From: Pantoea endophytica
Lineage (GTDB): Bacteria; Pseudomonadota; Gammaproteobacteria; Enterobacterales; Enterobacteriaceae
Direction of reading: 5' to 3'
Length of the DNA stretch: 64,000 bases
Assembly: GCF_002858935.1 (NCBI RefSeq)
Contig: NZ_PJRT01000001.1
Location: forward strand, 1 to 64,000
Below the pieces are notes generated by a model that worked only from the letters and a program-made list of their open reading frames with translations, had not been told where the DNA came from and did no database searches. Positions 38,943 through 52,574 of this stretch are shown piece by piece; positions within the stretch are counted from its first letter, which is position 1; each line of letters starts with the position of its first letter. A program made the position numbers and the translations under genes.

Positions 38943-40241
38943 CTAATCCTCCGCGCCACGCAGGATGGCGTCGAGTTTTTCTGGCTGCAAACGAATCTGC
39001 GCTGCACGACGATGCGCCTGCATCCCTTCGGTACGGCTCTGGCGCACCGCAGGAGCAGCGATGGCGGCGATGCCCTGATCGTCAATCCATTGATGCGTGC
39101 AGGTTTTCAGATACGCACCGACCCACAATCCGCCGGTGTAACGTGCCGCCGCCATGGTGGGCAGCGTGTGGTTGGTGCCGCAGCATTTATCAGAAAACAC
39201 CACGCTGGCGTTTTGCCCGATAAACAGCGATCCGTAATTGCGGATGCGCGCCGCCAGCGCATGGGGATCGCGCGCATGGATTTGCAGATGCTCAGTGGCG
39301 ATCTCATCGGTGTACGCCACCATCGCATCCTCGTCGGCACAGAGAACAATTTCGCCCTGACGCTGCCACGCCTCACCAGCCGTTTTCGCCGTCGGCAAGG
39401 ATGCCAGCTGCGCCTCAATTTCCCGCAATGTTGCATGCGCCACGCGCTCGCTGGTGGTGGCCAGCCCAACACGCGTGCGCACGTCATGCTCCGCCTGCGC
39501 CAGCAGATCCGCTGCCAGCACGCGCGGATCAGCACTGTCATCGGCGACGATAAAGATTTCGCTCGGCCCCGCCAACGCATCAATACCCACTTTGCCAAAT
39601 ACCTGACGCTTCGCCTCATTGACGAAAGCGTTGCCCGGCCCGACGATCTTGTCCACCGCCGGCAGCGATGCGGTGCCGTATGCCATCGCGGCAATGGCCT
39701 GCGCACCACCAACTTTGAAAATGCGGTGCGCTCCGGCCAAGTGGCAAATTGCAATCATTGCCGGATGAGCGCCCGGCGGCAGACAGGCGATGATGTTATC
39801 GCAGCCCGCCACCACCGCTGGCACGATAGACATCACCGGCGCGGAGAGGATCGGATAGCGTCCGCCCGGCACATAGCAGCCCACGGTTTCAATCGGGATG
39901 ATGCGATGCCCCAGATGAACGCCCGGCAACGTCTCAATCTCCAGCGGCTGCAAGGTGGCGCGCTGCGCTTCGGCGAAGCGGCGCACCTGCGCAATGGCAA
40001 ACTCACTGTCCTGGCGGGTTTGATCGGCGAGTTGCGCCAGCGCCTGCTCGATCTCTGCTGCCGAAACTTCCAGCTGCTCCGGCGCGACACCATCAAATTT
40101 CTGCGAGTAATCACGCAGTGCCGCGTCTCCGCGCTGACGCACGTTGCTAATAATGTCGCTCACGGTGGCGATCAGGCTGGCATCCGCCTGCGCATCCTCG
40201 CCCGCGGCTTGCTTGATAAACTGCACGCGTTGTTTGCTCAT
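38943..40241 (-). CDS. HisD-like (histidinol dehydrogenase family) NAD-dependent dehydrogenase, copy 1
   Basis: 432-aa member of the histidinol dehydrogenase family. Residues matching the HisD active site are kept: the general bases Glu317-His318 (TEHLQ), the zinc-site QAEH, the Asp in [13 protein letters not shown], and a C-terminal His in EGMQAHRRAA. It is not in a his operon, so a catabolic role oxidising an alcohol to an acid is more likely, as for the HpsN-type sulfopropanediol dehydrogenases of the same family. The ATG (40241) overlaps the preceding gene's stop by 4 bp (ATGA). It differs clearly from copy 2 on the other arm. The substrate is unknown. Confidence 0.85.
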   Translation of the reverse strand: MSKQRVQFIKQAAGEDAQADASLIATVSDIISNVRQRGDAALRDYSQKFDGVAPEQLEVSAAEIEQALAQLADQTRQDSEFAIAQVRRFAEAQRATLQPLEIETLPGVHLGHRIIPIETVGCYVPGGRYPILSAPVMSIVPAVVAGCDNIIACLPPGAHPAMIAICHLAGAHRIFKVGGAQAIAAMAYGTASLPAVDKIVGPGNAFVNEAKRQVFGKVGIDALAGPSEIFIVADDSADPRVLAADLLAQAEHDVRTRVGLATTSERVAHATLREIEAQLASLPTAKTAGEAWQRQGEIVLCADEDAMVAYTDEIATEHLQIHARDPHALAARIRNYGSLFIGQNASVVFSDKCCGTNHTLPTMAAARYTGGLWVGAYLKTCTHQWIDDQGIAAIAAPAVRQSRTEGMQAHRRAAQIRLQPEKLDAILRGAED

Positions 40242-41392
40242 GCTTCCGTCTCCGCCAGTTGTCCCAATTTGATCTGCGCCAGCATCGCAAGGTGATCGTA
40301 AACCACCCATTCATCAACAATTTTGCCGTTCACCACGTGATAGTGGCTCATACCCATCACCAGCAGACGCTGTCCCGTTGGTTTACCCAACTCGCCGTAG
40401 CCAAGATGATGCCCTTCCATTACCCAGCGCACCGCCACTTTGGTGCCGCCCTCTTCACATGGATTGGAGCAGATATGCTGCGGCATCCATGCGCCGTCTG
40501 GGATCATGCCGATCAGCGCCAGCGTCTGATGGATCACCGATGCCTGACCATATAACTCTTTCATCAGTGGGCCGTGCCACTGCACATTGCTGGCGTAAAC
40601 CTCTTTCACTTTGCCCAGCATGCGTTTGTTGTAAATCTCGTGCAGCCAGCCCAGCACCTGTGCTTCGGTATCAGTGTGCGCCAGCGTGTAATCCGGATCG
40701 CTTTCTGGCGGATACTGGCCGAGCAGACGACGGTTTTCGCCAATCTCCGTCAGTCGGAAACCCTTATCAAACTGCTCTTTCGCCATGTTGTACGCGATCT
40801 GGTCGGTATCCAGCCCCAATTGACGCATCAGCGACATGTTGTCGCTCACCACCCATTCGCGGTAAATCTTGTTTTCCAGAATCATGCAGTCCGCCACGGT
40901 GCGCGTGGTGAAGGTGCGGTTGGTGGGTTTACCGTATTGGCTTGATTGTGTATGCCGGCCGCTACCGGTAACCAGATGCGAGGTGTAAAAACCGTCAACG
41001 TCGTTGCCGTTCCAGATCACCTGCGTTGCCATGCCGCGACGTTCCGGGAAGGCGACCAAACGTTGCAAGGTATCGAGCACCACTTGTTCACGGGTATAAA
41101 TGGTGCCCAATGCGTTGTATAACACGCAGTTATGGGTGTAATGGCTGTAGATCAGCCCGACATCGCGCTCATCCCAGATCTTGTGGGTACAACGCACAAT
41201 GTAATCAACGATATCGGTATAGCAGGGATCGAAACCGCGCATTGGCTGCACCCGCGCGCGGTTTTCTGGAACCAGATCGACAAAATCCCGTCGCTCAACC
41301 TGCAAAACCGGTTCGGCCTGGGTGCGTGCTGAGGTTTTTTCTGCGCTCTTTTCACTGGCGGTGGCTTTATTAGCCGTGTCCGTTGTAGACAT
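40238..41392 (-). CDS. Protein with two tandem SnoaL-like (NTF2-fold) domains, copy 1
   Basis: 384 aa, with no signal peptide. After a low-complexity Ser/Thr/Lys-rich N-terminus (about 1-45) come two SnoaL-like domains (about 60-200 and 235-375), each ending in the family pattern of a Met/His-Tyr-x-V strand followed by an Asp-Glu-Trp strand (SHYHVVNGKIVDEWVVYDHL). Such folds act as cyclases, isomerases or hydrolases. ATG at 41392 is preceded by AGGAG. A 152-bp gap separates it from the upstream gene, in which I see no operator. Homologous by eye to copy 2. Confidence 0.8.
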   Translation of the reverse strand: MSTTDTANKATASEKSAEKTSARTQAEPVLQVERRDFVDLVPENRARVQPMRGFDPCYTDIVDYIVRCTHKIWDERDVGLIYSHYTHNCVLYNALGTIYTREQVVLDTLQRLVAFPERRGMATQVIWNGNDVDGFYTSHLVTGSGRHTQSSQYGKPTNRTFTTRTVADCMILENKIYREWVVSDNMSLMRQLGLDTDQIAYNMAKEQFDKGFRLTEIGENRRLLGQYPPESDPDYTLAHTDTEAQVLGWLHEIYNKRMLGKVKEVYASNVQWHGPLMKELYGQASVIHQTLALIGMIPDGAWMPQHICSNPCEEGGTKVAVRWVMEGHHLGYGELGKPTGQRLLVMGMSHYHVVNGKIVDEWVVYDHLAMLAQIKLGQLAETEA

Positions 41393-41544
41393 AAACACTC
41401 CTGCTTTTGACGAATTAAGGGTGAGCGCGGTCCTCGCAATCAAGCGCTGCCGATTCACCCGGCTGAATTCAGGGTGCAGAACGCCGTCGGTAATTAAGGG
41501 ATTAATTGCCGTGACGTGATGCGTTATTTAAAAGTGCTGATTAA

Positions 41545-42513
41545 TCAGCTGAGTAGCTGTAACCAGATTGAGAGTTCATCGATACCTAAATATTCCCGCA
41601 TGATGACGCCATCACGTAATTCCAAATGAGAAATACCGGAAATACACACTGGCTTGCGCGACGGCGGACCAAACTTTCCGTAGCCGTCATGCCAGCTCAA
41701 CAGTGACCAGCGCAGGCTGATGCGCACCGGTTCGTTGGCATCGCGGCGCACCACCAAATGATGCAGCTGCGTTTCGCTGTCAGCGAATGAGGCGCGATAG
41801 CCGGAAAGGAAGCTGCCAATCTCCAGCTCGCCGGTAAAGCTGCTGTGGCCCGGTCCGTGCAAGGTGGCGGCGGGATGATAAACACCAGGCACCACACCGC
41901 TGTTGCCGCCGGCCCACATGCTGAGATAGCGCTCAATCAAACCCGCGATGGTTCCTTCGGCATCATCGCCATCCGGGCCGCCAGCCCAACGCGCTTCCAG
42001 CTCTTCGGGCGCGGGCATCTCCAGCCCTTGCTGCTGGCGCATCTGCGTTAGATGCTGGGCAAACTCCGCCACGTTGGTACCAATCTGCGCAAGAATGCCC
42101 GCGCGATCCTGCAGCAGCCACTCTTGCTCCACCAGCCCATCACGACAAATACGATCGGCGAAAGTACGTACCCAAACCGTTTTGCCACTCGGCGCGCCAA
42201 AGAAGCCTTCGCCCAGATGCTGAATACGTGCCTGCGTGCGCTGCGAGGCGTACCAACAGGTATCGCCTTCACGCGCGGTGAGAATATCTTCGGTCAGCAC
42301 CTGACGCTGCGGGAAGCAATGTAACGCTTCCAGCGTCAAACGCATGAAATCGCTGAGTTCGGTCAGGCGCTTTTCCGGCGTGTGAAATACCACCGGCGTG
42401 GCGTAGAAATCAGCCAGCTGCCCGATATCCTTCTGCTCCCATACCACGTGGGTTAACGTCAGAATAAACTGCTGAATAGAATCAAACTGGGGACTGAAAC
42501 CCGGCAATCGCAT
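41545..42513 (-). CDS. Protein with two tandem SnoaL-like (NTF2-fold) domains, copy 2
   Basis: 322 aa, cytoplasmic. Two SnoaL-like domains (about 12-150 and 185-320). Motifs shared with copy 1 are a THxxW near the start of domain 1 (THVVWEQKDIG against THKIWDERDVG), the RTxAD segment, the YxxxxxxHGP element of domain 2, and GISHLELRDG before the last strand. It lacks the N-terminal tail of copy 1. Its start codon overlaps the stop of the LacI gene (TAATG), so the two are translationally coupled. The reaction cannot be inferred. Confidence 0.8.
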   Translation of the reverse strand: MRLPGFSPQFDSIQQFILTLTHVVWEQKDIGQLADFYATPVVFHTPEKRLTELSDFMRLTLEALHCFPQRQVLTEDILTAREGDTCWYASQRTQARIQHLGEGFFGAPSGKTVWVRTFADRICRDGLVEQEWLLQDRAGILAQIGTNVAEFAQHLTQMRQQQGLEMPAPEELEARWAGGPDGDDAEGTIAGLIERYLSMWAGGNSGVVPGVYHPAATLHGPGHSSFTGELEIGSFLSGYRASFADSETQLHHLVVRRDANEPVRISLRWSLLSWHDGYGKFGPPSRKPVCISGISHLELRDGVIMREYLGIDELSIWLQLLS

Positions 42514-43580
42514 TACTCAACCTCCTCTGAACGAAATAGCAGCTGGCCGTTCTCTTCTACCACGCCGTGACGCGGACGCCGCGCGGAGTGGCGTACTACC
42601 AACGTGCCGGGAATAACAATTTGCTCGGGTGCCATCACCGCGCTGTCGATTTGCTGCATTAGCAGGCCAATGGTGCGTTGCACCATCACTTCAACCGGCT
42701 GACAGATAGACGTCAGCGCATACGAAGGCCAGCCCGCTGGACCAACATCGTCATAACCCACCACCGACACATCCTGCGGAATGCGCAGACCAAACTCGTA
42801 ACGCGCCACATCCATAACCGTCAGCGCCATATGATCGTTGACGGCAAACACCGCATCGGGCGGCGTGCCGCTGCTGAACAATTGACGCGCCGCCTGTGCG
42901 GTTTGCTCGCTGTCGTTTTGACCCGCTAACACCGTGACGTCGATGTTGCGCGCGCGCAATGCCTCGCGAAAACCGTCCAGCCGTAGCTGATTTACCGAAG
43001 CGTTGTCCGCGCCGGTAATGCAGGCAAAGCGTTGATGTTCGCCTGCCAACAGAAATTCGGCGATCTGACGTGCGGCGGCACGGTTATCGGTATTCACGCT
43101 TGACGCCATTTCGCTTTCGGCGGTGCGGTTGAACAGCACCACCGGAATGCCCGCGCCGTGGCACTCTTCGGATAACGCATCGGATAACGCGCCGGATGCC
43201 AGCACAATGCCATCCACGCGGTACTGCATGATCTGATCGAAAATGCGGTCAACATTGCTATCCCGATCGCTGACGAACAGCAGCAGATGGTAGTTAAGCG
43301 CATCCAGTTCACGCCCCAACGCTTCCAGCACATGGGGATAAAACGGATTATCGAAACAGGAGATCACCACACCAACGATGCGCGAACGTGCGGTGTTCAG
43401 CGATCGCGCCAACGCGTTGGGTCGATAACCCAACTCACGGGCAGACTGCAGCACCTTTTCACGCGTGGCCGGTGAAATACTGGCGCCCGGCGTGAAGGTA
43501 CGCGATACCGCAGACTGTGAAACGCCGGCGTGCTGCGCAACTTGTTGTGAGGTCACTGGACCGAAGGTCTTACGTTTCAT
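42513..43580 (-). CDS. LacI-family transcriptional regulator of the island
   Basis: 355 aa. N-terminal HTH (TSQQVAQHAGVSQSAVSRTF, about residues 10-29), hinge helix with RPNALARSLNT, then a periplasmic-binding-protein-like effector domain (VGVVISCFDNPFYPHVLEAL, ITGADNASVNQLRLDGF, VVGYDDVGPAGWPSY). ATG at 43580 has AGGAAG eight bases upstream; the longer in-frame extension to 43748 covers an operator and is rejected. Divergent from the first transporter. Three palindromes with the central CG typical of LacI-family operators are found only at this island's promoters, so it most likely represses both arms. Confidence 0.92.
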   Translation of the reverse strand: MKRKTFGPVTSQQVAQHAGVSQSAVSRTFTPGASISPATREKVLQSARELGYRPNALARSLNTARSRIVGVVISCFDNPFYPHVLEALGRELDALNYHLLLFVSDRDSNVDRIFDQIMQYRVDGIVLASGALSDALSEECHGAGIPVVLFNRTAESEMASSVNTDNRAAARQIAEFLLAGEHQRFACITGADNASVNQLRLDGFREALRARNIDVTVLAGQNDSEQTAQAARQLFSSGTPPDAVFAVNDHMALTVMDVARYEFGLRIPQDVSVVGYDDVGPAGWPSYALTSICQPVEVMVQRTIGLLMQQIDSAVMAPEQIVIPGTLVVRHSARRPRHGVVEENGQLLFRSEEVE

Positions 43581-43694
43581 GGCGTTATCTTCCTGTTTAG
43601 CACACTGATGCACGGGTGACTGCCGGGCATTGTAGCCAATTTCATCAACCGGACTCACCTGCTTCGGTGTGTGTTTTTTACTCTTACACCTTTT

Positions 43695-43710
43695 TTGCAT
43701 GCGTATGCAA
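43695..43710. promoter_or_regulatory. Operator palindrome A of the LacI-type regulator
   Basis: TTGCATGCGTATGCAA is a near-perfect 16-bp palindrome with central CG, 115 bp before the regulator gene. It matches sites B and C in the core TTGnATnCGTATnCAA. Confidence 0.8.
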
Positions 43711-43782
43711 CACTCAATAACTTTTTTTTCACATTGCCAAGCACACACTTTACAAACATGAAATCATTTCGTAACTTCGGCC

Positions 43783-43800
43783 ATTGAATACGTATTCAAT
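43783..43800. promoter_or_regulatory. Operator palindrome B of the LacI-type regulator
   Basis: ATTGAATACGTATTCAAT is a perfect 18-bp palindrome, 79 bp before the MFS gene and about 89 bp centre to centre from site A, so looping between A and B is conceivable. The rest of the 43581-43878 gap holds no gene. Confidence 0.82.
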
Positions 43801-43878
43801 GCATGCAACATAACCGACCCGGACTCAGGATGAAACCCGCGTTTTTAGTCACTTATCTGCGTTGATAAGAGGTTTAAC

Positions 43879-45114
43879 ATGTTTCGAGCACTGTTTAGCC
43901 GTCCCGAGCTGTTGACGTTTTTCACCATGAGCGTGCTGTTTTTTATCTGCATTCACGGCTTCGATGCCTTCATGGCGCCTTACATGGTGAGATTAGGCAT
44001 TGAACCGCAAACCATCGGCATGATCATGGGCGCCTCTGGTTTGGCATCGCTGTGTATCCGTTTTCCGCTCAGCGTCATCTCTGACGTGATGAAAAATCGC
44101 AAAGTGTTTATGCAGTTCGCCCTGCTGCTGCCGGTGATTGCCTGGCCGCTGGCATGGATGTTCCCCGCTGCGCTGACATTCTGGCTGGCCAAGCTGGCCT
44201 GCGGCATCGCTGCCGCGAGTTGGGTGCTCTACAACATCATTTTCATCCGCTATTTTCCTCGTGATGACGCGCCGGCTGCAGTGGCGCTGTTGGCATTGGC
44301 CGGGCCGATTGGCGTATTTATTAGCAATGCCATTTGCGGTGCCGTTGCCCTATGGCTGGGCAGTACGCAGGCGTTTTTTGTGCCAGCGATTGCCGGTTGC
44401 CTGGCGCTGCTTCTCAGCCTGCGCGTTCGTGAAGAGGAAGATAGCCACAAAGCGCCGCACCTCAAAGCCTGTATCGACAGCGCTAAACGCCAGCTAGCGG
44501 ACCGCTCAATTTGGTTTATTGGGCTGCTGGCGACGGTGGTGATTTTGGTCCCGTTTGCCACTCGCGACACGCTCACGCCCATATACGCTCAGCAGTTAGG
44601 TGCCAAGGCGGGCACGCTGGCAGTGCTGAGTAATATCCACTTGTTGTTTTATGGTGTGGCCGTGGCATTGTGCAGTTCCGTGTTTTATCAGCGGCTGGGC
44701 TTGGTTAACACCGCGCTGGTGGGCATCGGATTACAAATCATCTCGTCAATTTTCGTCCCCTTGACCAGCAACATGTGGCTGATTTACCTGTGGCAAGGTC
44801 TGGCCGGTTTTTCCTTTGGCATGGCGTTTGCCGTGTTTATGTCCTTAAGCGTGGTTAACACTTCGGAACATGAACAAACCACCCGGATGGGGCTGTTTCA
44901 AACCATCTATTCGTGCGGCATGTTTTTCGGCCCGGTGCTGATGGGCGTGTTGTTGCAACACGTCAATGTCTACGCGGGTTATTGGGTGATTGGTGGCTTG
45001 TGTCTGATCGCTGGCGTGTTAACACCGCTAGCGGCAAAACGGGTGCAGCAGCGTCAGTTGCCGCCAGCGGCACGTGAAGCGAGCGGCATGCTGTCGCAGG
45101 ATGCGGTGAAATGA
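43879..45114 (+). CDS. MFS transporter, island copy 1
   Basis: 411-aa major-facilitator permease with about twelve transmembrane helices. The substrate is unknown; motif-A equivalent is PLSVISDVMKNRK. It is a clear paralogue of the second transporter of the island (shared FATRDTLTP, IHxFDxFxAPYxxxL and QxIYSxGxFFGPVLxG). First gene of the rightward arm; the stop overlaps the amidase start by 4 bp (ATGA). Confidence 0.9.
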   Translation: MFRALFSRPELLTFFTMSVLFFICIHGFDAFMAPYMVRLGIEPQTIGMIMGASGLASLCIRFPLSVISDVMKNRKVFMQFALLLPVIAWPLAWMFPAALTFWLAKLACGIAAASWVLYNIIFIRYFPRDDAPAAVALLALAGPIGVFISNAICGAVALWLGSTQAFFVPAIAGCLALLLSLRVREEEDSHKAPHLKACIDSAKRQLADRSIWFIGLLATVVILVPFATRDTLTPIYAQQLGAKAGTLAVLSNIHLLFYGVAVALCSSVFYQRLGLVNTALVGIGLQIISSIFVPLTSNMWLIYLWQGLAGFSFGMAFAVFMSLSVVNTSEHEQTTRMGLFQTIYSCGMFFGPVLMGVLLQHVNVYAGYWVIGGLCLIAGVLTPLAAKRVQQRQLPPAAREASGMLSQDAVK

Positions 45115-46412
45115 GTGCCGCGCGTCTGCAACCGCAGCGCAACAGTGCGGAAGAGGTTGAACGCCGCTTAGCCGCTATCAACGCAGGTCGCGCGCTCAAC
45201 GCGATTATCAGTATTAATCCCCAGGTGATGAAAGAGGCACAGCGCTGCGATCGCTTATGGCGTAGCGGCGCGCCGGTTGGCGTGCTGCACGGCATTCCGC
45301 TGGTGATAAAAGATAATATTGATTGCGTCGGCATGGCTACCACGCTCGGCTGCCGGGCGCTGGCCGAAGCACAGCCACGTGCAGATGCGCGCGTAATTGC
45401 ACGCCTGAGAACTGCGGGTGCGCTGATTCTCGCCAAAGCGAATCTGTCTGAGTTCGCCTTTGACGTACGTTCGCGCAGTTCGCTCGGCGGCGATGTGCGC
45501 AATCCCCTGAATCCACAGCTGACCGCCGGTGGCTCAAGCGGCGGCAGCGCAGCGGCGGTGGTGGCCGGTATGGCGGATGCGGCACTCGGCAGCGATACTG
45601 GCGGATCGATCCGCATTCCCGCGGCATGGACCGGTCTGGTGGGACTGCGTCCGGCATTTCGCCGCCGCCAGCTGCGCGGCGTCGCGCCGCTTTCGCTCAG
45701 CAAAGACACCGTTGGGCCGATGACATGGTGCGTGGCTGATGCGGCGCTGCTGCATCAGGTAACGCATGGGCTGCCGGTGCGCCCGCTAGCGCAGCGAACC
45801 TTGCGGGGTGTGCGGCTGGGCATGGTTAGCGATCTGCCAGGCGATGATGACGCGCAACGTCAGGCATTAGCACAGGCTTTCTCTCGTCTGCGGCGGGCGG
45901 GCGCCACACTGATTCCGCTGCGGTTACCGCTATCATCGCGCGTGGCGCAGGAACCTTGTCTCAGCCTGCGCGAATTCCATCCGGCGATGTCCCGCTGGCT
46001 AAGCAAAATGGACCATGCGCCTGCTTCGCTTTCGGATCTGCTGGCACGAGGCGAACATCTCGCCGAGTTCGATGAACTGCTGCAATTACACCTCACGCGC
46101 AGCGCGCTGGTGTGTGCCGCATGGCGCGAGCAACGCCGTTTTCAACGCCATTTGCGTCAGCAACTGCAACAGCAGATGCAGGATCAGCGGCTGGATGCGC
46201 TGATTTATCCCACCAGCCAGCGCACTCCGATTTCACTGGAGAAGATGCCGCCGGGCTGGGCGCCGGAGCTGGCGGCCATCAGCGGCTTACCCGCCGTAAC
46301 GTTGCCGTTTGGTCAATTAGCTAACGGTTTGCCGCTGGGGCTGGAACTGCTCTATCCAGCGCCTGATGAAGAAGCATTGCTGGCGCTCGCTTTGGCGATA
46401 GAGCGACTGTAA
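45111..46412 (+). CDS. Amidase-signature family hydrolase
   Basis: 433 aa. The Ser-cisSer-Lys triad of the amidase family is complete: Lys67 (VIKDN), Ser142 (GGSSGG) and nucleophile Ser166 (GSDTGGSIRIPA). It should hydrolyse an amide (or similar) bond in the cytoplasm. Translationally coupled to the transporter, so it may act on the imported compound first. It is not GatA: no gatB/gatC neighbours, and this is a catabolic context. A weak hairpin CCCCG/CGGGG (46437-46451) follows. Confidence 0.88.
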   Translation: MSAARLQPQRNSAEEVERRLAAINAGRALNAIISINPQVMKEAQRCDRLWRSGAPVGVLHGIPLVIKDNIDCVGMATTLGCRALAEAQPRADARVIARLRTAGALILAKANLSEFAFDVRSRSSLGGDVRNPLNPQLTAGGSSGGSAAAVVAGMADAALGSDTGGSIRIPAAWTGLVGLRPAFRRRQLRGVAPLSLSKDTVGPMTWCVADAALLHQVTHGLPVRPLAQRTLRGVRLGMVSDLPGDDDAQRQALAQAFSRLRRAGATLIPLRLPLSSRVAQEPCLSLREFHPAMSRWLSKMDHAPASLSDLLARGEHLAEFDELLQLHLTRSALVCAAWREQRRFQRHLRQQLQQQMQDQRLDALIYPTSQRTPISLEKMPPGWAPELAAISGLPAVTLPFGQLANGLPLGLELLYPAPDEEALLALALAIERL

Positions 46413-46529
46413 AACCAGAAAATTCATCATGTTAATCCCCGTTCTGCGGGGCTTTCTGCTGCCTGCAATTTGAAAAAACTGCGCACATTCTCACTTTTCA
46501 TCTTTTCCCCTTTCAGCCTCTTTACGCTC

Positions 46530-46547
46530 TTTGCATACGTATGCAAA
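46530..46547. promoter_or_regulatory. Operator palindrome C of the LacI-type regulator
   Basis: TTTGCATACGTATGCAAA is a perfect 18-bp palindrome in the 170-bp gap before the second HisD-like gene, ending 35 bp before its start. It suggests an independent but co-regulated promoter for the distal six-gene unit. Confidence 0.82.
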
Positions 46548-46582
46548 CCTGATTAACAGCAATCAATGATGAGGAAAAGAGC

Positions 46583-47902
46583 ATGGCAATCTGGTTAAAA
46601 CAGGCGGCAGCGAAAGCAGAACGCCAACAGCAGCAACAGCGCGTTCGCAGCGATGTGGAAGCAGTGCTGGCGCAAATTGAAGCGCGCGGCGATGACGCGG
46701 TGCGCGAACTCTCGATTAAGTTCGATGGCTTTGCCCGCGATGATTTCCGCTTAACGCCGCAGGAGATCAATGCCTGCCTGCAACAGCTGACCAAACAAGA
46801 TATTCGCGACATCGAATTCGCTCAGGAGCAGGTGCATAACTTCGCTCAGGCGCAAAAAAATTGCCTGACCGATTTGGCGATTGAAACGCGTCCGGGCGTG
46901 ATACTTGGCCATCGCAACATTCCCATCAGCAATGTCGGCTGTTACGTGCCGGGCGGCAAATACCCGCTGCTGGCTTCGGCGCATATGTCGATCATTACCG
47001 CCAAAGTCGCAGGCTGCGATCGCATCGTGAGCTGCGCCCCGCCGTTTCACGGTAAACCGGCTGCAGCCATTGTTGCGGCGCAGTCGATGGCCGGCGCCGA
47101 CGAGATCTATGCGCTCGGCGGCATTCAGGCGGTGGGCGCCATGGCGATTGGTACTGAGCGGATTGCGCCGGTCGATATGTTAGTCGGGCCGGGCAACGCG
47201 TGGGTGGCCGAAGCCAAACGCCAGCTATTTGGCCGCGTTGGCATCGACCTGTTCGCTGGCCCGACCGAAACGCTGGTGATCGCCGATGACAGCGTTGACG
47301 GTGAACTCTGCGCAACCGATCTGCTCGGCCAGGCGGAACATGGCCCCACCTCACCCGCGATTCTGCTGACCTGCTCGCGCCAGCTGGCACAGGAGACCGA
47401 GCGCTATATCCACCAGCTGTTGCTGCAACTGCCTACCGCCGATGTGGCGCAACAAGCCTGGCACGATTATGGCGAAATCATTCTCTGTGCCGATCACGAT
47501 GAGATGCTGGCAGAAGCCAACCGCATCGCTTCTGAACACGTGCAGGTGATGACCGATCGCGATGACTGGTATCACCAGAACATGCGCAATTACGGCGCGC
47601 TGTTTCTCGGGCCGCGTACCAATGTGGCTTATGGCGACAAGGTGATCGGCACCAACCATACGCTGCCCACGCTGGGTGCATCGCGTTATACCGGCGGCTT
47701 GTGGGTGGGCAAATTTATGAAAACCTGCACCTGGCAGCGCGTCACCAGCGATGCGGCTTCGGCAGAAATCGGCGCTTACTGCTCGCGCCTGGCGCTGCTG
47801 GAGGGCTTTGCCGGTCATGCCGAACAGGCCAACATTCGCGTGCGCCGCTACGGCCAGCAGGAAGTGGCCTACGCCGCACCCGCGCCGGTTACGGTGAAAT
47901 AA
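46583..47902 (+). CDS. HisD-like NAD-dependent dehydrogenase, copy 2 (HpsN-like)
   Basis: 439-aa histidinol-dehydrogenase-family protein. Active-site equivalents are Gln250/His253 (QAEH), Glu318/His319 (SEHVQ), Asp352 ([14 protein letters not shown]) and His412 (FAGHAEQA). The C-terminal pattern [18 protein letters not shown] and RVRRYG resembles the sulfopropanediol 3-dehydrogenase (HpsN) branch rather than biosynthetic HisD, but the partner genes of that pathway are absent. Likely oxidises a primary alcohol through an aldehyde to a carboxylate. Start ATG with GAGG nine bases upstream; operator C lies just before. Confidence 0.87.
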
Positions 47903-47912
47903 GGAGGCGCGC

Positions 47913-48674
47913 ATGGTTCCGACTACCCCTTTATTTCGCCTGGATGGACAGCGCGCGCTGGTGACCGGCGGCTCGCGCGGTATCGGTTTTGCCGCCGCTA
48001 TCGCGCTGGCCGACGCCGGAGCGCAAGTGTGGATTGCCGCGCGCGACGCCGATCGCCTGGCGCACGCCGTGCAGCAGGCGGCGAGCGCCGGCCTGACATT
48101 GCATCCGCTGCCGCTCGACGTCTGCAACACGCGCGCGGTGCGCCAGACACTACACGATTTGCCGAGCTTTCATGTGCTGGTCAACAGCGCCGGGCTGGCG
48201 CGCCATCAGCCGTTTAGCGAGGTCAGCGAAGCCAACTTTGATGCGGTGATGGACGTAAACCTGCGCGCCACGTTTTTCCTGTCGCAGCGGGTCGCGGCCG
48301 GTATGCAGGCCGCCGGACAAGGCGGCAGCATTATCCATCTCTCTTCGCAGATGGCGCACGTCGGCGGCCCGCAGCGCAGCGTCTACTGCGCATCAAAAGC
48401 GGCGCTGGAAGGGCTGACGCGTGCCATGGCGCTGGAGCTGGGACGCGACGGCATTCGCATCAACACCTTGTGCCCCACCTTTATCGAAACCGAACTGTCG
48501 CAGGCCTCGCTGGCAGATGAAGCGTTTCGCCAGCAGGCGCTGCGCCGCATTCAGATTGGTCGTCTTGGCACGCTGGAAGATGTGATGGGGCCGGTGGTGT
48601 TTCTGGCATCACCGGCCGCAGCGTTGGTCACCGGCAGCTCGCTGAAGGTGGATGGCGGCTGGACGGCTTATTGA
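47913..48674 (+). CDS. Short-chain dehydrogenase/reductase
   Basis: 253-aa classical SDR. Cofactor motif TGGSRGIG (18-25), NSAG, catalytic Ser in LSSQ, Tyr158 and Lys162 (YCASK), and the C-terminal VDGGW. An AARD after the second strand favours neither cofactor strongly. AAGGAGG precedes the ATG by six bases. It probably oxidises or reduces a hydroxyl/keto group of the same pathway as the HisD-like enzyme upstream. Confidence 0.9.
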   Translation: MVPTTPLFRLDGQRALVTGGSRGIGFAAAIALADAGAQVWIAARDADRLAHAVQQAASAGLTLHPLPLDVCNTRAVRQTLHDLPSFHVLVNSAGLARHQPFSEVSEANFDAVMDVNLRATFFLSQRVAAGMQAAGQGGSIIHLSSQMAHVGGPQRSVYCASKAALEGLTRAMALELGRDGIRINTLCPTFIETELSQASLADEAFRQQALRRIQIGRLGTLEDVMGPVVFLASPAAALVTGSSLKVDGGWTAY

Positions 48675-48684
48675 GGAACTCATT

Positions 48685-49866
48685 ATGAAAGCGTTATTGC
48701 GTCGTGATGTGCTGCTGTTTTTCATTATTAGCTTGCTGTTTTTTATCAGCATTCACGCCTTTGATCCGTTTCTCGCCCCCTACATCATGTCGCTGAATGT
48801 CGAGGCGCGCGTGATGGGAATCATCATCGGTGCTACCGGATTGGCCTCGATGCTGTTGCGTTTTCCGACCGGCATTCTGTCGGACCGCTTTCGCCGCCGC
48901 AAACGCATTATCCAGATTGGCTTATTGTTTACGCTTATCGCCTGGCCGGTGGTTTACCTTTGGCCGACACCGGAAACACTGTTTATCGCCAAGCTCGCCG
49001 ATGGCGTCACCAGCGCGACATGGGTGGTGTATAACGTGATGTTCGTGGCTTACTTCCCGCCGCTGGAAGCCGCCGCCGCGATCGCCATGCTGAGCGTCAC
49101 CTCGCCGGTAGGCACTTTTATCGGGATTTCGGTGGCGGGATTTATTGCCCGTCATTTCGGTGCCGAATCGAGCTTTTTGGTGGCGTCCGCTGCCGCGCTG
49201 CTGGCTTTTTTGCTGACATTCTTTATCCGTGAAAAACGCCCGGAAGCGATGCCCACGGCACAACGTCTCTCTGCGGTTCGCACTCAGCTGCGTGATCCTT
49301 CGGTGTGGTATCTCGGCGGACTCTGTGCACTGGTGATGATGGTGCCATTTGCCACGCGCGACACGCTGACGCCGCTGCTGGCAGAAGGCTTTGGCATGGC
49401 GGCCGCCTCGCTGGCTACGCTAAGCGGTATCCATCTGTTCTTCTATGCGCTGGCCACCGCGCTGTGCGCGCCCTTCTTCTATCGCCTGCTGGGCTTACGC
49501 AACACGGCAATTATCGGCGGCGTGCTGCAAGGGGCCGTAGCGATAGCCATGCCTTACGCGCCCAATATCTGGCTGCTGTATGGCTTGCAGGCGCTGGCGG
49601 GCTGTGCCTTCGGCATGATCTCCACCGTGCTGAATTCTCTGATCGTCACCCGCACGCCCGCCTGGCAGCAATCCACTCGCGTTGGGCTATATCAAAGCAT
49701 CTACTCCGCCGGGATTTTCTTTGGCCCGGTGCTGGTCGGCTACATCAAATATTACTTCGCGATGCAGCAGGGCTTTATGGTGATTGGCATTATTTCATTG
49801 CTGTCGCTGCTGCTGGTGCGCCATGTGATGCGGATGGTGAATGCCCGTCCTGTGGCGGAGGGCTAA
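48685..49866 (+). CDS. MFS transporter, island copy 2
   Basis: 393-aa twelve-helix permease, paralogous to the first island transporter. Motif A is GILSDRFRRRKR, more canonical than in copy 1. GAGGA is placed nine bases before the ATG at 48685; an upstream start inside the SDR gene is unlikely. Two permeases in one regulon suggest two related substrates or import plus export. Confidence 0.9.
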   Translation: MKALLRRDVLLFFIISLLFFISIHAFDPFLAPYIMSLNVEARVMGIIIGATGLASMLLRFPTGILSDRFRRRKRIIQIGLLFTLIAWPVVYLWPTPETLFIAKLADGVTSATWVVYNVMFVAYFPPLEAAAAIAMLSVTSPVGTFIGISVAGFIARHFGAESSFLVASAAALLAFLLTFFIREKRPEAMPTAQRLSAVRTQLRDPSVWYLGGLCALVMMVPFATRDTLTPLLAEGFGMAAASLATLSGIHLFFYALATALCAPFFYRLLGLRNTAIIGGVLQGAVAIAMPYAPNIWLLYGLQALAGCAFGMISTVLNSLIVTRTPAWQQSTRVGLYQSIYSAGIFFGPVLVGYIKYYFAMQQGFMVIGIISLLSLLLVRHVMRMVNARPVAEG

Positions 49867-49868
49867 TC

Positions 49869-50585
49869 ATGTCACTGCCTTTGGTGTTACTGGGCGGTAC
49901 CTTGTGCGACGGCGCGTTGTGGCAACCGCTTTGCCGCCATCTACCGCCGCAGCCGATGATCATTCCCGAGATGAGCGGTGCTGACAGCGCCGAACAGCTC
50001 GCGGCGCAGCTGCTGACTGACTTGCCGGCGCGCTTTTTACTGGTGGGATTCTCGCTGGGTGCGCTGGTGGCGCTGGAGATGCAGGCGCAAGCCGCGCAAC
50101 GCATCGCGGGCCTCGCGCTGCTGGCGGTGAATCCGTTGGCGGATGCGCCGGTCAACGCTGCGGGACGTATTGCCTTGCTTGATCGAGCTGCGAAAAACGG
50201 TATGCGATCGGTGATTGAGCAACTCTGGCCGCGCTATGTGCATGCATCGCGGCTGGCGGATCGCGAGCTGCTTGGCGCGCTGGTGACGATGGCAGAACGC
50301 AGCAGCGTTGAGCGCTTTCGTCAACAGACCGCCATCGCCATACAACGTCGCGATTTACGGCATACCTTACCGGCGCTGCAGGCACCGCTGTTGATCCTCA
50401 ACGGCGACAGCGACGCCATCTGCACCCCCGAACACCATCACCTGCTTGTCAAAGCGGCTCCCGCCGCACGCCACATCACGCTTGAACAGTGCGGACACTT
50501 TCTGCTGCTGGAGCAGCCGCAAGCCTGTGCCCGCGCGCTGCAAACCTGGATTAAGAGGAGTGAATTATGCGTATCAACCCTTTAA
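49869..50585 (+). CDS. Alpha/beta-fold hydrolase
   Basis: 238 aa. The nucleophile elbow is GFSLG with Ser62; the catalytic acid is probably in GDSDAIC and the histidine in CGHFLLLEQP. Likely an esterase or lactonase of the pathway. The real start is ATG at 49869, two bases after the transporter's stop; the open frame extends far upstream but only as a shadow of that gene. Its last 19 bp overlap the start of the aldolase gene, whose Shine-Dalgarno (AGGAG) lies inside it. Confidence 0.87.
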   Translation: MSLPLVLLGGTLCDGALWQPLCRHLPPQPMIIPEMSGADSAEQLAAQLLTDLPARFLLVGFSLGALVALEMQAQAAQRIAGLALLAVNPLADAPVNAAGRIALLDRAAKNGMRSVIEQLWPRYVHASRLADRELLGALVTMAERSSVERFRQQTAIAIQRRDLRHTLPALQAPLLILNGDSDAICTPEHHHLLVKAAPAARHITLEQCGHFLLLEQPQACARALQTWIKRSELCVSTL

Positions 50586-51349
50586 AACAACGCCGTGAAC
50601 CGATTATTAACGGCTGGCTGGCGATCCCCAGCAGCTACAGCGCCGAGATTGCCGGGCATCAGGGCTTTGATGCAGTCACCGTTGACCTGCAACATGGCCT
50701 GATCGATTTCGCCGCCGCGCTCAGCATGTTGCAGGCGCTATCCTCCACACCCGCGACGCCGCTGGTGCGCGTCTCGCACAACGAGCCGGCGCAGATTATG
50801 CGCATGCTGGATGCCGGCGCCTACGGCATTATCTGCCCGATGATCAACGATGCCGCCGAAGCGCAGCAGTTTGTCGATGCCTGCCGCTATGCGCCGCAAG
50901 GTTCGCGCTCGTTTGGTCCAGCGCGTGCGCTGCTGTATGGCGGCAAAGATTATCCGCAGCATGCTAACCAGCAAATTCTGACGCTGGCGATGATTGAAAC
51001 ACGCGCGGGGTTGGCCAATCTTGATGCCATTCTCGACGTCGAGGGATTGGACGGCGTGTTTATCGGCCCCAACGATCTGTCTCTCACGCTCACCGGCCAG
51101 GCCAGCGCCGAATCGCAGCATCCTGAGATGTTAAATGCCATTGAACGGGTGCTGAGCCGCACCCGCGCCGGCCACAAACTGGCCGGTATTTTTTGTACCA
51201 GCGGAGAAGCCGCCGCACAGCGCATCGCACAGGGCTTTCAGTTGGTGACCCCCGCCAATGATGTGATGCAGCTAACGCATGCCGCACGCCACGCTGTCGC
51301 CACCGCGCGCGGTGAGGCGTTGCCTGTTCGTTCTGGTTCGGGTTATTGA
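50567..51349 (+). CDS. HpcH/HpaI-family class II aldolase
   Basis: 260 aa. Active-site residues of HpaI are matched: His43 (VDLQHG), an Arg in VRVSHNEP, metal ligands Glu144 (MIETRAG) and Asp170 (IGPNDLS), plus GSRSFGPAR. Enzymes of this family cleave 4-hydroxy-2-oxo acids to pyruvate (or oxaloacetate) and an aldehyde. It would be the carbon-carbon cleavage step of the island's pathway. The aldehyde product and chain length cannot be told. Confidence 0.9.
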   Translation: MRINPLKQRREPIINGWLAIPSSYSAEIAGHQGFDAVTVDLQHGLIDFAAALSMLQALSSTPATPLVRVSHNEPAQIMRMLDAGAYGIICPMINDAAEAQQFVDACRYAPQGSRSFGPARALLYGGKDYPQHANQQILTLAMIETRAGLANLDAILDVEGLDGVFIGPNDLSLTLTGQASAESQHPEMLNAIERVLSRTRAGHKLAGIFCTSGEAAAQRIAQGFQLVTPANDVMQLTHAARHAVATARGEALPVRSGSGY

Positions 51350-51359
51350 GGAGAAGAAG

Positions 51360-52529
51360 ATGAAACAGCAAACATTGTCCGCTACAGCAGCACGTGCGCG
51401 CCTGATCGCGCCGCAAGATATGGTGTCGTGCAATCTGGCGTTTATCGACTGCAAACTGCCGGGTTCGCATCTCAAGCAGAATTACTCATTTATCGGGCCG
51501 GGCGTGACGCAGTCGTCTGAGCAGGTGATCAATATTCCTGAAGCGCACGGTTTTAACATTGGCGCGGCAGCGATGCCAAAAGGCGTGACCAATAATCTGC
51601 ATCTGCATTTCACTGCCGAAGTCTTCCTGATCCATGAAGGCCGCTGGCGTTTCCGCTGGGGGAATAAAGGCGAAGAGTCGCTGGAGCTCGACGCTCCGGC
51701 GATTGTCAGCCTGCCAACATGGATTTTCCGTGGCTTCACCAATGTGTCGGCTACCGATACCGATGGCTGGGTATTTACCGTGCTGGGCGGCGATAACACC
51801 GGCGGCATTATCTGGCATCCCGATGTGATGTCGGCGGCGGCGGAATATGGACTCTATCTCAGCCCCAATAACATGCTGATCGATACCTCAACCGGCGCGG
51901 CGATCCCGCCGGTTGCAGAGCGTATGCCGCCGCTGCCCGAGGCGGAGATGGCGCAGTTACAGCATTTTACGCCCGCGCAGATGGCGCAGTTTGCCGTCAC
52001 TGGTGAGCAGCGCGCCTGGAGCGATCACGCGCTACTGGATGCCATGTTGCCAGGTCACGGTGCGCGTATGGCGCCCGTCATCGGCTATGGCATTAATCAG
52101 GATCGTCAGGCCGCTCCGCCCATCAACACGCCACACGGCTTCTCGGTAGAGTGGCTGGCTTTGCCACAAGCGGGCGAGATGGGTACGCACCGCTGCGCAC
52201 AGGTGCAAGTACTCATGGTGTTTAAGGGCACGCTTACTGTGACCTTCAATCGTGATGGTGAAGAAGTGACGATGACCGCGCCGGAGCGTTCGGTGATTTC
52301 CGTGCCGGCAGGCAGCTGGCGTCGCTATCAGGCATCCGATCATGCGTGTGAAGTGGTGATTACCACTGCGGGTGACGGACGGAAAAAACTGGAATGGGAT
52401 AAAGCGATTGTCGATGCCGCTGCTGCGTTAGGTTGGGGGCTGGATCCAGATGGCTATCTGGTACGTCAGGCATTGTTGCCGCTGGTGGCCCAGCGTGCCG
52501 GTCGGCGGTTGGCGACGCAAGAGGCGTAA
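51360..52529 (+). CDS. Two-domain cupin protein (bicupin)
   Basis: 389 aa. Domain 1 has the cupin motif HxH-x3-E (His81, His83, Glu87), but the expected third His of motif 2 is Arg124 (PTWIFRGFTN). Domain 2 has lost nearly all ligands: His277-x-Cys279-x3-Gln283, and Arg321 in PAGSWR replaces His. Only domain 1 therefore looks able to bind metal. Not a gentisate dioxygenase by motif. It could be an isomerase, epimerase or dioxygenase; no function is assigned. Last gene of the rightward arm, GAGGAG before the ATG at 51360. Confidence 0.82.
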   Translation: MKQQTLSATAARARLIAPQDMVSCNLAFIDCKLPGSHLKQNYSFIGPGVTQSSEQVINIPEAHGFNIGAAAMPKGVTNNLHLHFTAEVFLIHEGRWRFRWGNKGEESLELDAPAIVSLPTWIFRGFTNVSATDTDGWVFTVLGGDNTGGIIWHPDVMSAAAEYGLYLSPNNMLIDTSTGAAIPPVAERMPPLPEAEMAQLQHFTPAQMAQFAVTGEQRAWSDHALLDAMLPGHGARMAPVIGYGINQDRQAAPPINTPHGFSVEWLALPQAGEMGTHRCAQVQVLMVFKGTLTVTFNRDGEEVTMTAPERSVISVPAGSWRRYQASDHACEVVITTAGDGRKKLEWDKAIVDAAAALGWGLDPDGYLVRQALLPLVAQRAGRRLATQEA

Positions 52530-52537
52530 TGGTATGT

Positions 52538-52562
52538 AAAAAGGTCGCCATAAATGGCGACC
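52538..52562 (-). terminator. Terminator of sbp
   Basis: On the minus strand the stem GGTCGCCA / TGGCGACC (52555-52562 and 52543-52550) is followed by five T. It lies between the bicupin gene and convergent sbp; rightward the T-run is absent, so the island transcript may rely on the hairpin alone. Confidence 0.8.
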
Positions 52563-52574
52563 TGACAATGTACG

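Follow-up and report, generated by a model that had tools for sequence, protein, structure and literature searches.

Organization of the island

The stretch of DNA considered here, hereafter the window, spans positions 1 to 64,000 (forward strand) of contig NZ_PJRT01000001.1 from Pantoea endophytica. Between the cdh and sbp genes, at positions 38943-52529, it carries an island of 12 genes organized in two divergent arms. As proposed in a first-pass annotation of this DNA, all 12 genes are open and all match named families. The island is probably a horizontally distributed catabolic regulon governed by one LacI-type regulator. Proteins were assigned to families by Pfam and NCBIfam profile searches; among the matches listed, the broad hisD domain model is the only NCBIfam model whose cut-off is reached by any island protein. 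The likely starts of HisD_L, SnoaL_A, MFS2 and the bicupin were chosen by sequence.

The left arm, on the reverse strand, reads outward from the centre as LacI, SnoaL_B, SnoaL_A and HisD_L. The LacI-family regulator (42513-43580) adjoins putative operators and has both a helix-turn-helix domain (PF00356, 42 bits) and a periplasmic-binding-like domain (PF00532, 104 bits). Two double-SnoaL proteins follow. In SnoaL_B (41545-42513), PF07366 matches at 20-144 and PF12680 at 193-306, both above cut-off; in SnoaL_A (40238-41392), which has two NTF2/SnoaL domains, PF07366 (96 bits) matches two stretches and the predicted model (pLDDT 86) consists of two like halves. The arm ends with HisD_L (38943-40241), an enzyme of the histidinol dehydrogenase family (PF00815, 470 bits).

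The right arm, on the forward strand, begins with the transporter MFS1 (43879-45114; PF07690, 117 bits) and an amidase of the amidase-signature family (45111-46412; PF01425, 270 bits). It continues with HisD_R, the second HisD-family enzyme (46583-47902; PF00815, 455 bits), a short-chain dehydrogenase (SDR, 47913-48674; PF13561, 199 bits) and the transporter MFS2 (48685-49866; PF07690, 142 bits). Next come an alpha/beta hydrolase (49869-50585; PF12697, 55 bits), which is PcaD/BioH-like but below the cut-offs, an HpcH/HpaI-type aldolase (50567-51349) and a bicupin (51360-52529; cupin match of 27.7 bits for a cut-off of 27.2). The tight spacing with overlapping starts and stops, already pointed out in the first reading, corresponds to four measured overlaps of 1-19 bp: SnoaL_A/HisD_L (4 bp), LacI/SnoaL_B (1 bp), MFS1/amidase (4 bp) and hydrolase/aldolase (19 bp).

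Insertion between cdh and sbp

A genus sample was made of the window genome and 19 others, 17 of which were compared (G436 and G441 were left out). In all 17 congeners the cdh-sbp junction is free of the island, with cdh and sbp matches at most 249 bp apart. Another congener, G374, which came from a separate search, carries the island at this position. The view that the segment is inserted between cdh and sbp is thus well founded. According to blastn comparison with the empty site of a near relative (G432/L104), the inserted segment covers positions 38947-52572: the alignment stops at 38946 and restarts at 52573, and 39 bp lie between these points in G432. The G+C content is 58.5% in the island and 55.4% in the remaining window.

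Flank identity is 93-95% with G432, where the island is absent, and 92% with G374, where it is present. Because the flanks are nearer to the genome without the island, G432 may have lost it, or the island may have moved between lineages. Moreover, the segment itself is 87% identical to its counterpart in G374 (L116), below the 92% of the flanks, as if the island had evolved faster or had been exchanged. At the right edge (52530-52574), a terminator-like hairpin differs, by eye, from the hairpin common to the empty site and G374.

Recurrence of the gene set

One genome per species was scanned with an alignment of SnoaL_A, the larger of the two SnoaL proteins, which gave 314 confirmed stretches. 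The best 80 were kept, as stretches of at most 10 kb on each side of SnoaL_A with gene calls made in the present analysis; they comprise 28 gammaproteobacterial loci and 52 alphaproteobacterial or other loci. Because the scan was anchored on SnoaL_A, all counts in these 80 loci are conditional on this gene. Among the 23 gammaproteobacterial loci longer than 20 kb, SnoaL_B, HisD_L, LacI and MFS1 are always present, SDR, hydrolase and aldolase are each found in 21, the bicupin in 20, HisD_R in 18 and the amidase in 10. MFS2 occurs in only two of the 28 loci. In the 34 alphaproteobacterial or other loci of that length, LacI (32/34), HisD_R (31/34) and SDR (29/34) dominate, followed by HisD_L (17/34), bicupin and hydrolase (16/34 each), and amidase and any aldolase (15/34 each). 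Ten extra families, repeatedly found within the clusters, were for that reason counted among their parts; the remaining families are each seen in at most 5 of the 80 loci. Within the order, SnoaL_A occurs in 5 of 295 genomes, including that of the window, and in 5/5 a close bicupin lies within 13 kb (E <= 1e-60). Seven further genomes of the 295 have a diverged bicupin and no SnoaL_A at E <= 1e-60; the corresponding stretches contain HisD_R in five cases, and aldolase and hydrolase without HisD in two. That the genes travel together, as the first-pass annotation supposed, is therefore borne out by the neighbourhoods of these 80 loci and 295 genomes.

The composition of the clusters varies between branches. 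Many alphaproteobacterial or other loci have a sugar-type ATP-binding cassette (ABC) transporter replacing the MFS protein, an amidase from another branch, additional SnoaL-type proteins, and an RraA-like protein (PF03737) where gammaproteobacteria have the HpcH aldolase; other loci have different HpcH types. Overall, the transporters may be of the MFS, sugar-type ABC, tripartite ATP-independent periplasmic (TRAP) or sodium-solute symporter type. The symporter (PF00474) is found in L129, together with HisD_R, SDR, bicupin, hydrolase, HpcH aldolase and SnoaL-type proteins. The gene set on a Deinococcus plasmid is similar; four of its genes are annotated as ester cyclase, and a carbon-nitrogen hydrolase (PF00795) takes the place of the amidase. 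Clusters are also located on a Pantoea dispersa plasmid and on a Roseibium plasmid. Eight of the 52 alphaproteobacterial or other loci encode a protein weakly matching a methionine-synthase-type family (PF01717, 37 bits, cut-off 21), which in seven of these loci adjoins the bicupin. In Devosia-type clusters, this match lies between the bicupin and RraA (L071:5707-6837) and hints at methyl transfer.

A common putative operator

A 16-bp palindrome occurs in both main intergenic regions of the window. In the 5.1-Mb genome, TTGNATRCGTATNCAA has three exact matches, all in the island. Two of these putative operators stand 89 bp apart in the central region, TTGCATGCGTATGCAA at 43695-43710 and TTGAATACGTATTCAA at 43784-43799; the third, TTGCATACGTATGCAA at 46531-46546, is upstream of HisD_R. 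Two operator-like places with one mismatch occur elsewhere in the genome (G000:C27:549883 and G000:C31:365879).

Because the pattern was derived from the window, only sequences outside the window can test it. Relatives were searched with TTGNATACGTATNCAA, allowing two mismatches, and matches were compared with those in three shuffles per set preserving base composition only. In 27 of the 28 gammaproteobacterial loci, an operator pair spaced by 88-90 bp lies between MFS1 and LacI; the exception, L024, is a short piece beginning within LacI. The 27 loci have 54 matches, versus 0-2 in the shuffles. The alphaproteobacterial and other loci give 74 matches in 41 of 52 loci (0-1 in the shuffles), 66 of which, in 37 loci, are outside predicted genes and 8 inside. 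These matches mostly precede SnoaL_A, HisD_L, the bicupin, the ABC binding protein or HisD_R. Two genomes of the same order (L127 and L128) have four sites each, within the clusters, and the Deinococcus plasmid has two. Finally, 12 further genomes or records searched at one mismatch yielded 27 places, of which 26 are in or at clusters; the 27th precedes an amidase located on another contig of G019.

This last case is not isolated. Thirteen of the 14 gammaproteobacterial genomes without amidase in the cluster stretch were searched for this enzyme. Four of them, including the G019 assembly, encode a homologue elsewhere, with 53-56% identity, and in 4/4 an operator with 0-1 mismatch is found just upstream of the outlying gene. 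Close to the stand-alone amidase of the assembly behind L005, a Buttiauxella agrestis record, a second palindrome, ATGGATACGTATCCAT, is also observed (L160:3796 / L167:1069).

The two arms look like one regulon under the LacI-type regulator. The sequences show that the gene set and a single type of operator keep reappearing together in Gammaproteobacteria, Alphaproteobacteria and Deinococcus. As single genes are patchily distributed among loci, the genes could be suspected of being chance neighbours. Such an explanation is hardly conceivable, first of all because the genes share an operator, which is common to clusters and outlying amidases, and also in view of the recurrent gene set and of the constant association of SnoaL_A with the bicupin.

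The HisD-like enzymes

The sequence identity between HisD_L and HisD_R is 49%. When the tree is rooted on the HisD of the genome itself, they form separate groups (47/47 tips, support 0.99, and 55/55 tips, support 0.89, respectively). The closest solved relative of HisD_R is HpsN (8v35, 396 bits), the dehydrogenase acting on 2,3-dihydroxypropane-1-sulfonate (DHPS). It has been reported that the sulfonate is recognized by His126 of HpsN, in the motif G-R-Y-A/S-H, and that the corresponding motif of true HisD is G-S-A-P-L (PMC11382572, consulted in part). In alignments, the zinc-binding and catalytic residues of HpsN (Gln248, His251, Glu318, His319, Asp352, and His411) are kept in both island enzymes, in agreement with the HisD-like oxidation step proposed initially. 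The GRY[AS]H motif is replaced by GRYPI in HisD_L and by GKYPL in HisD_R. More generally, none of the 99 cluster HisDs whose motif could be read (three others were unread) has the sulfonate-recognizing histidine, its position being occupied by Ile, Leu or Met in all 99. A true HisD, with GSAPL, is encoded on another contig of the same genome; the island copies lack this motif.

Considering the similarity of HisD_R to HpsN, catabolism of an organosulfonate such as DHPS may be envisaged. This is very improbable given the replacement of the sulfonate-recognizing residue in every readable motif and the absence of a sulfolyase among the island genes. Because the zinc-binding and catalytic residues are kept and the histidine is gone, we infer that HisD_L and HisD_R would catalyze the NAD-dependent oxidation of a CH2OH group adjacent to a metal-binding OH or NH in a non-sulfonated substrate.

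The SnoaL-like proteins, the bicupin and the aldolase

The folds nearest to the SnoaL_A model are polyketide cyclases such as IdmH. Hence, the island might be thought to direct a biosynthesis or the modification of an antibiotic, with the SnoaL proteins acting as polyketide cyclases. However, the NCBIfam SnoaL_meth_ester model gives 20.8 bits for a cut-off of 200, no synthase or carrier protein is present among the 12 genes, and uptake-type transporters and LacI control also make such a role improbable. Fusion of the hydrolase to SnoaL_A is seen by Pfam in 8 of 120 homologues among the matches listed.

In the bicupin, domain 1 alone has motif-1 metal ligands. H81, H83, and E87, which we take from the general cupin motifs to be these ligands, are invariant in 20/20 aligned rows, and Arg124 is at the usual place of the fourth ligand. 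The predicted fold is near that of quercetinase YxaG (root-mean-square deviation of 3.3 over 247); oxalate decarboxylase and seed globulins rank level with quercetinase in this comparison.

The aldolase is clearly a member of its family (PF03328, 125 bits for a gathering score of 25; 219 bits to 6r62, a hydroxyketoacid aldolase). Nevertheless, it stays below the NCBIfam equivalogs HpaI (184 versus 369 bits), GarL (147 versus 407) and rhamnonate aldolase (141 versus 441).

Possible pathways and substrates

Considering the properties of these families, the following pathway may be proposed. A small polyhydroxylated, amide-bearing molecule would be taken up and its amide cleaved by the amidase. 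HisD_L and HisD_R would each convert a CH2OH adjoining an OH or NH group into a carboxylate, by NAD-dependent four-electron oxidation. The SnoaL proteins, with their NTF2 fold, might hydrolyze or dehydrate an activated carbonyl compound by acid-base chemistry. The conversion to a 4-hydroxy-2-oxo acid would be completed by SDR, bicupin and alpha/beta hydrolase, and this acid would be split by the HpcH aldolase, or by the RraA-like protein in many alphaproteobacteria, into pyruvate and a carbonyl compound. In this scheme, the left arm would represent the upper pathway, and the bicupin-hydrolase-aldolase trio the lower pathway.

Much of the earlier interpretation survives in this proposal, namely the catabolic unit, the co-occurrence of its genes, the HisD oxidation and an aldolase step, of the HpcH type or RraA-like. 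Pyruvate and an aldehyde are not favoured as final products, as an RraA-like enzyme equally fits pyruvate and a keto acid, or a decarboxylation. A substrate of plant origin and a rearrangement by the SnoaL and cupin proteins, both suggested in that interpretation, found no support here either. Amide hydrolysis is retained as one part of the pathway because the amidase has the same operator even outside the cluster; the enzyme itself is an accessory part of the island.

Several observations weigh against a catabolic regulon of this kind. No amidase homologue was found at E <= 1e-90 in 9 of the 13 gammaproteobacterial genomes searched, and the bicupin and any aldolase are present in only about half of the full alphaproteobacterial or other loci. 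With two mismatches allowed, no operator match was obtained in 11 of the 52 alphaproteobacterial or other loci, nor in L125, L126, L129, and L131. L022 and L023 have MFS1, LacI and the left arm only, and HisD_R is absent from the otherwise complete-looking right arms of L004 and L010. L014 looks broken, through decay or sequencing error: HisD_L, SDR and hydrolase are short pieces and HisD_R is missing. L125 and L126 combine a TRAP transporter (receptor PF03480 in L126) with bicupin, aldolase and hydrolase, and have no HisD or SDR in 20 kb. Finally, the order of the proposed reactions is guesswork. Concerning L023 (contig CACSKA010000011.1), recorded as Chryseobacterium sp. 18061, it should be mentioned that its layout is the same as that of the Citrobacter locus L022; the assembly is possibly mislabelled or mixed.

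A pathway for a sugar acid or a branched polyol may also be considered. HisD and SDR would convert the polyol into a keto-aldarate, SnoaL or bicupin would dehydrate or isomerize it, and the aldolase would split a 2-keto-3-deoxy acid. Consistent with this idea, some clusters have ABC transporters annotated as sugar-type, or TRAP transporters, and the aldolase is a relative of HpaI/GarL and of rhamnonate aldolases. For the TRAP binding protein encoded in L127, the nearest structures are 7bbr, 4p9k, and 4pdh, which have sugar-acid ligands. Furthermore, in L126 (5085-7758 and 8028-13901), the bicupin-aldolase-hydrolase genes with their TRAP transporter have 3-oxo-tetronate genes as neighbours, for a kinase, a decarboxylase and an isomerase, each above its NCBIfam cut-off. 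Such a pathway would assign no function to the amidase or to several SnoaL proteins, and neither a kinase nor a canonical dehydratase is among the recurring cluster families. It is a possible but on balance unlikely solution.

The regulon proposed above may be given a more specific form, in which mycosporine-type compounds (mycosporine-glutaminol, a mycosporine-like amino acid or gadusol) are degraded. In the deoxygadusol ring, a tertiary OH adjoins a CH2OH and there is a 2-methoxy-1,3-dione, and the fungal glutaminol side chain offers an amino alcohol and an amide. It may be imagined that HisD_L oxidizes the amino alcohol, that the amidase cleaves the amide of the glutaminol side chain, and that the SnoaL proteins hydrolyze the enaminone. 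HisD_R would oxidize the ring CH2OH beside the tertiary OH. With O2, the bicupin would cleave the 2-methoxy-1,3-dione into the methyl ester of 4-carboxy-4-hydroxy-2-oxoadipate, from which the alpha/beta hydrolase would remove methanol, and the aldolase would release pyruvate and oxaloacetate. RraA relatives of the LigK/GalC type cleave tertiary 4-hydroxy-2-oxo acids, so that an RraA-like protein could here replace the HpcH aldolase. Thus, every enzyme except SDR would receive a step. The fold of the bicupin near YxaG with its invariant H, H, and E, and the methionine-synthase-type match beside the bicupin, would also suit this proposal. Bacteria have been reported to hydrolyze mycosporine-like amino acids (PMC3083659, consulted in part).

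However, this fit was built by reasoning, and it leaves without a role the SDR found in most full loci of both sets. Oxalate decarboxylase and seed globulins are as near to the bicupin as quercetinase is, no mycosporine gene or annotation was seen in the annotated cluster regions examined, and no paper linking these compounds to the gene set was found among the open-access papers listed. Since nothing in the genomes names these compounds, it is doubtful that the island is a complete bacterial pathway for the mycosporine-type sunscreens of fungi, algae and cyanobacteria, with one LacI operator type shared as far as Deinococcus. Beforehand, a route for a sugar acid or a branched polyol has at least the same likelihood.

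A regulon so widespread, whose operator type is conserved from one phylum to another, suggests that the molecule degraded is common in the environment; no description of its breakdown was found. Within the HisD family, the island enzymes define a branch distinct from both HisD and HpsN, the bicupin family has an unusual predicted metal site, and the SnoaL-like proteins would probably have a catabolic use. Close congeners with and without the island constitute a natural experiment. If mycosporines were indeed the substrates, the island would reveal the recycling of an ultraviolet-screening nitrogenous carbon pool.

Comparison with known systems

The first-pass annotation recognized no described pathway with this combination of genes. 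Similarly, no description of the gene set was found among the open-access papers listed; other papers, including subscription articles and preprints, may hold one. Parts of the island nevertheless resemble known systems. The HisD-like enzymes share with HpsN, the DHPS 3-dehydrogenase, the family, the zinc ligands and the catalytic Glu-His and Asp-Lys. Likewise, the hpsRNOUP-suyAB cluster has 2-oxidoreductases and an MFS uptake protein; in the parts of the source consulted, no SnoaL, bicupin, aldolase or amidase is named in that cluster (PMC11382572). Conversely, none of the sulfolyases SuyAB, Xsc or CuyA is among the 12 island genes. Histidinol dehydrogenase is of the same family as the island copies but differs from them by its GSAPL motif. 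Each half of the SnoaL_A model has the fold of the SnoaL/IdmH NTF2 polyketide cyclases; the island protein differs by its two domains per chain, its catabolic setting and its score far under the curated cyclase model. The aldolase belongs with the class II HpcH/HpaI enzymes (HpaI, GarL, rhamnonate aldolase and 6r62) but is below every listed equivalog cut-off.

In LacI-family regulons, the regulator is usually encoded beside its operon and palindromic sites are used. The island resembles them in that its LacI regulator lies beside genes with palindromic sites, and a conserved palindrome is found, in the island and in its relatives, at the genes supposedly controlled by LacI. Such regulons were the subject of Ravcheev et al. 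(2014; PMC4052901, consulted in part), where a word search of the main text did not return histidinol, SnoaL, cupin, amidase or TTGCAT. Thus, LacI-controlled catabolic islands are of a known kind, and what is new here, as far as the open-access papers listed go, is the combination of enzymes.

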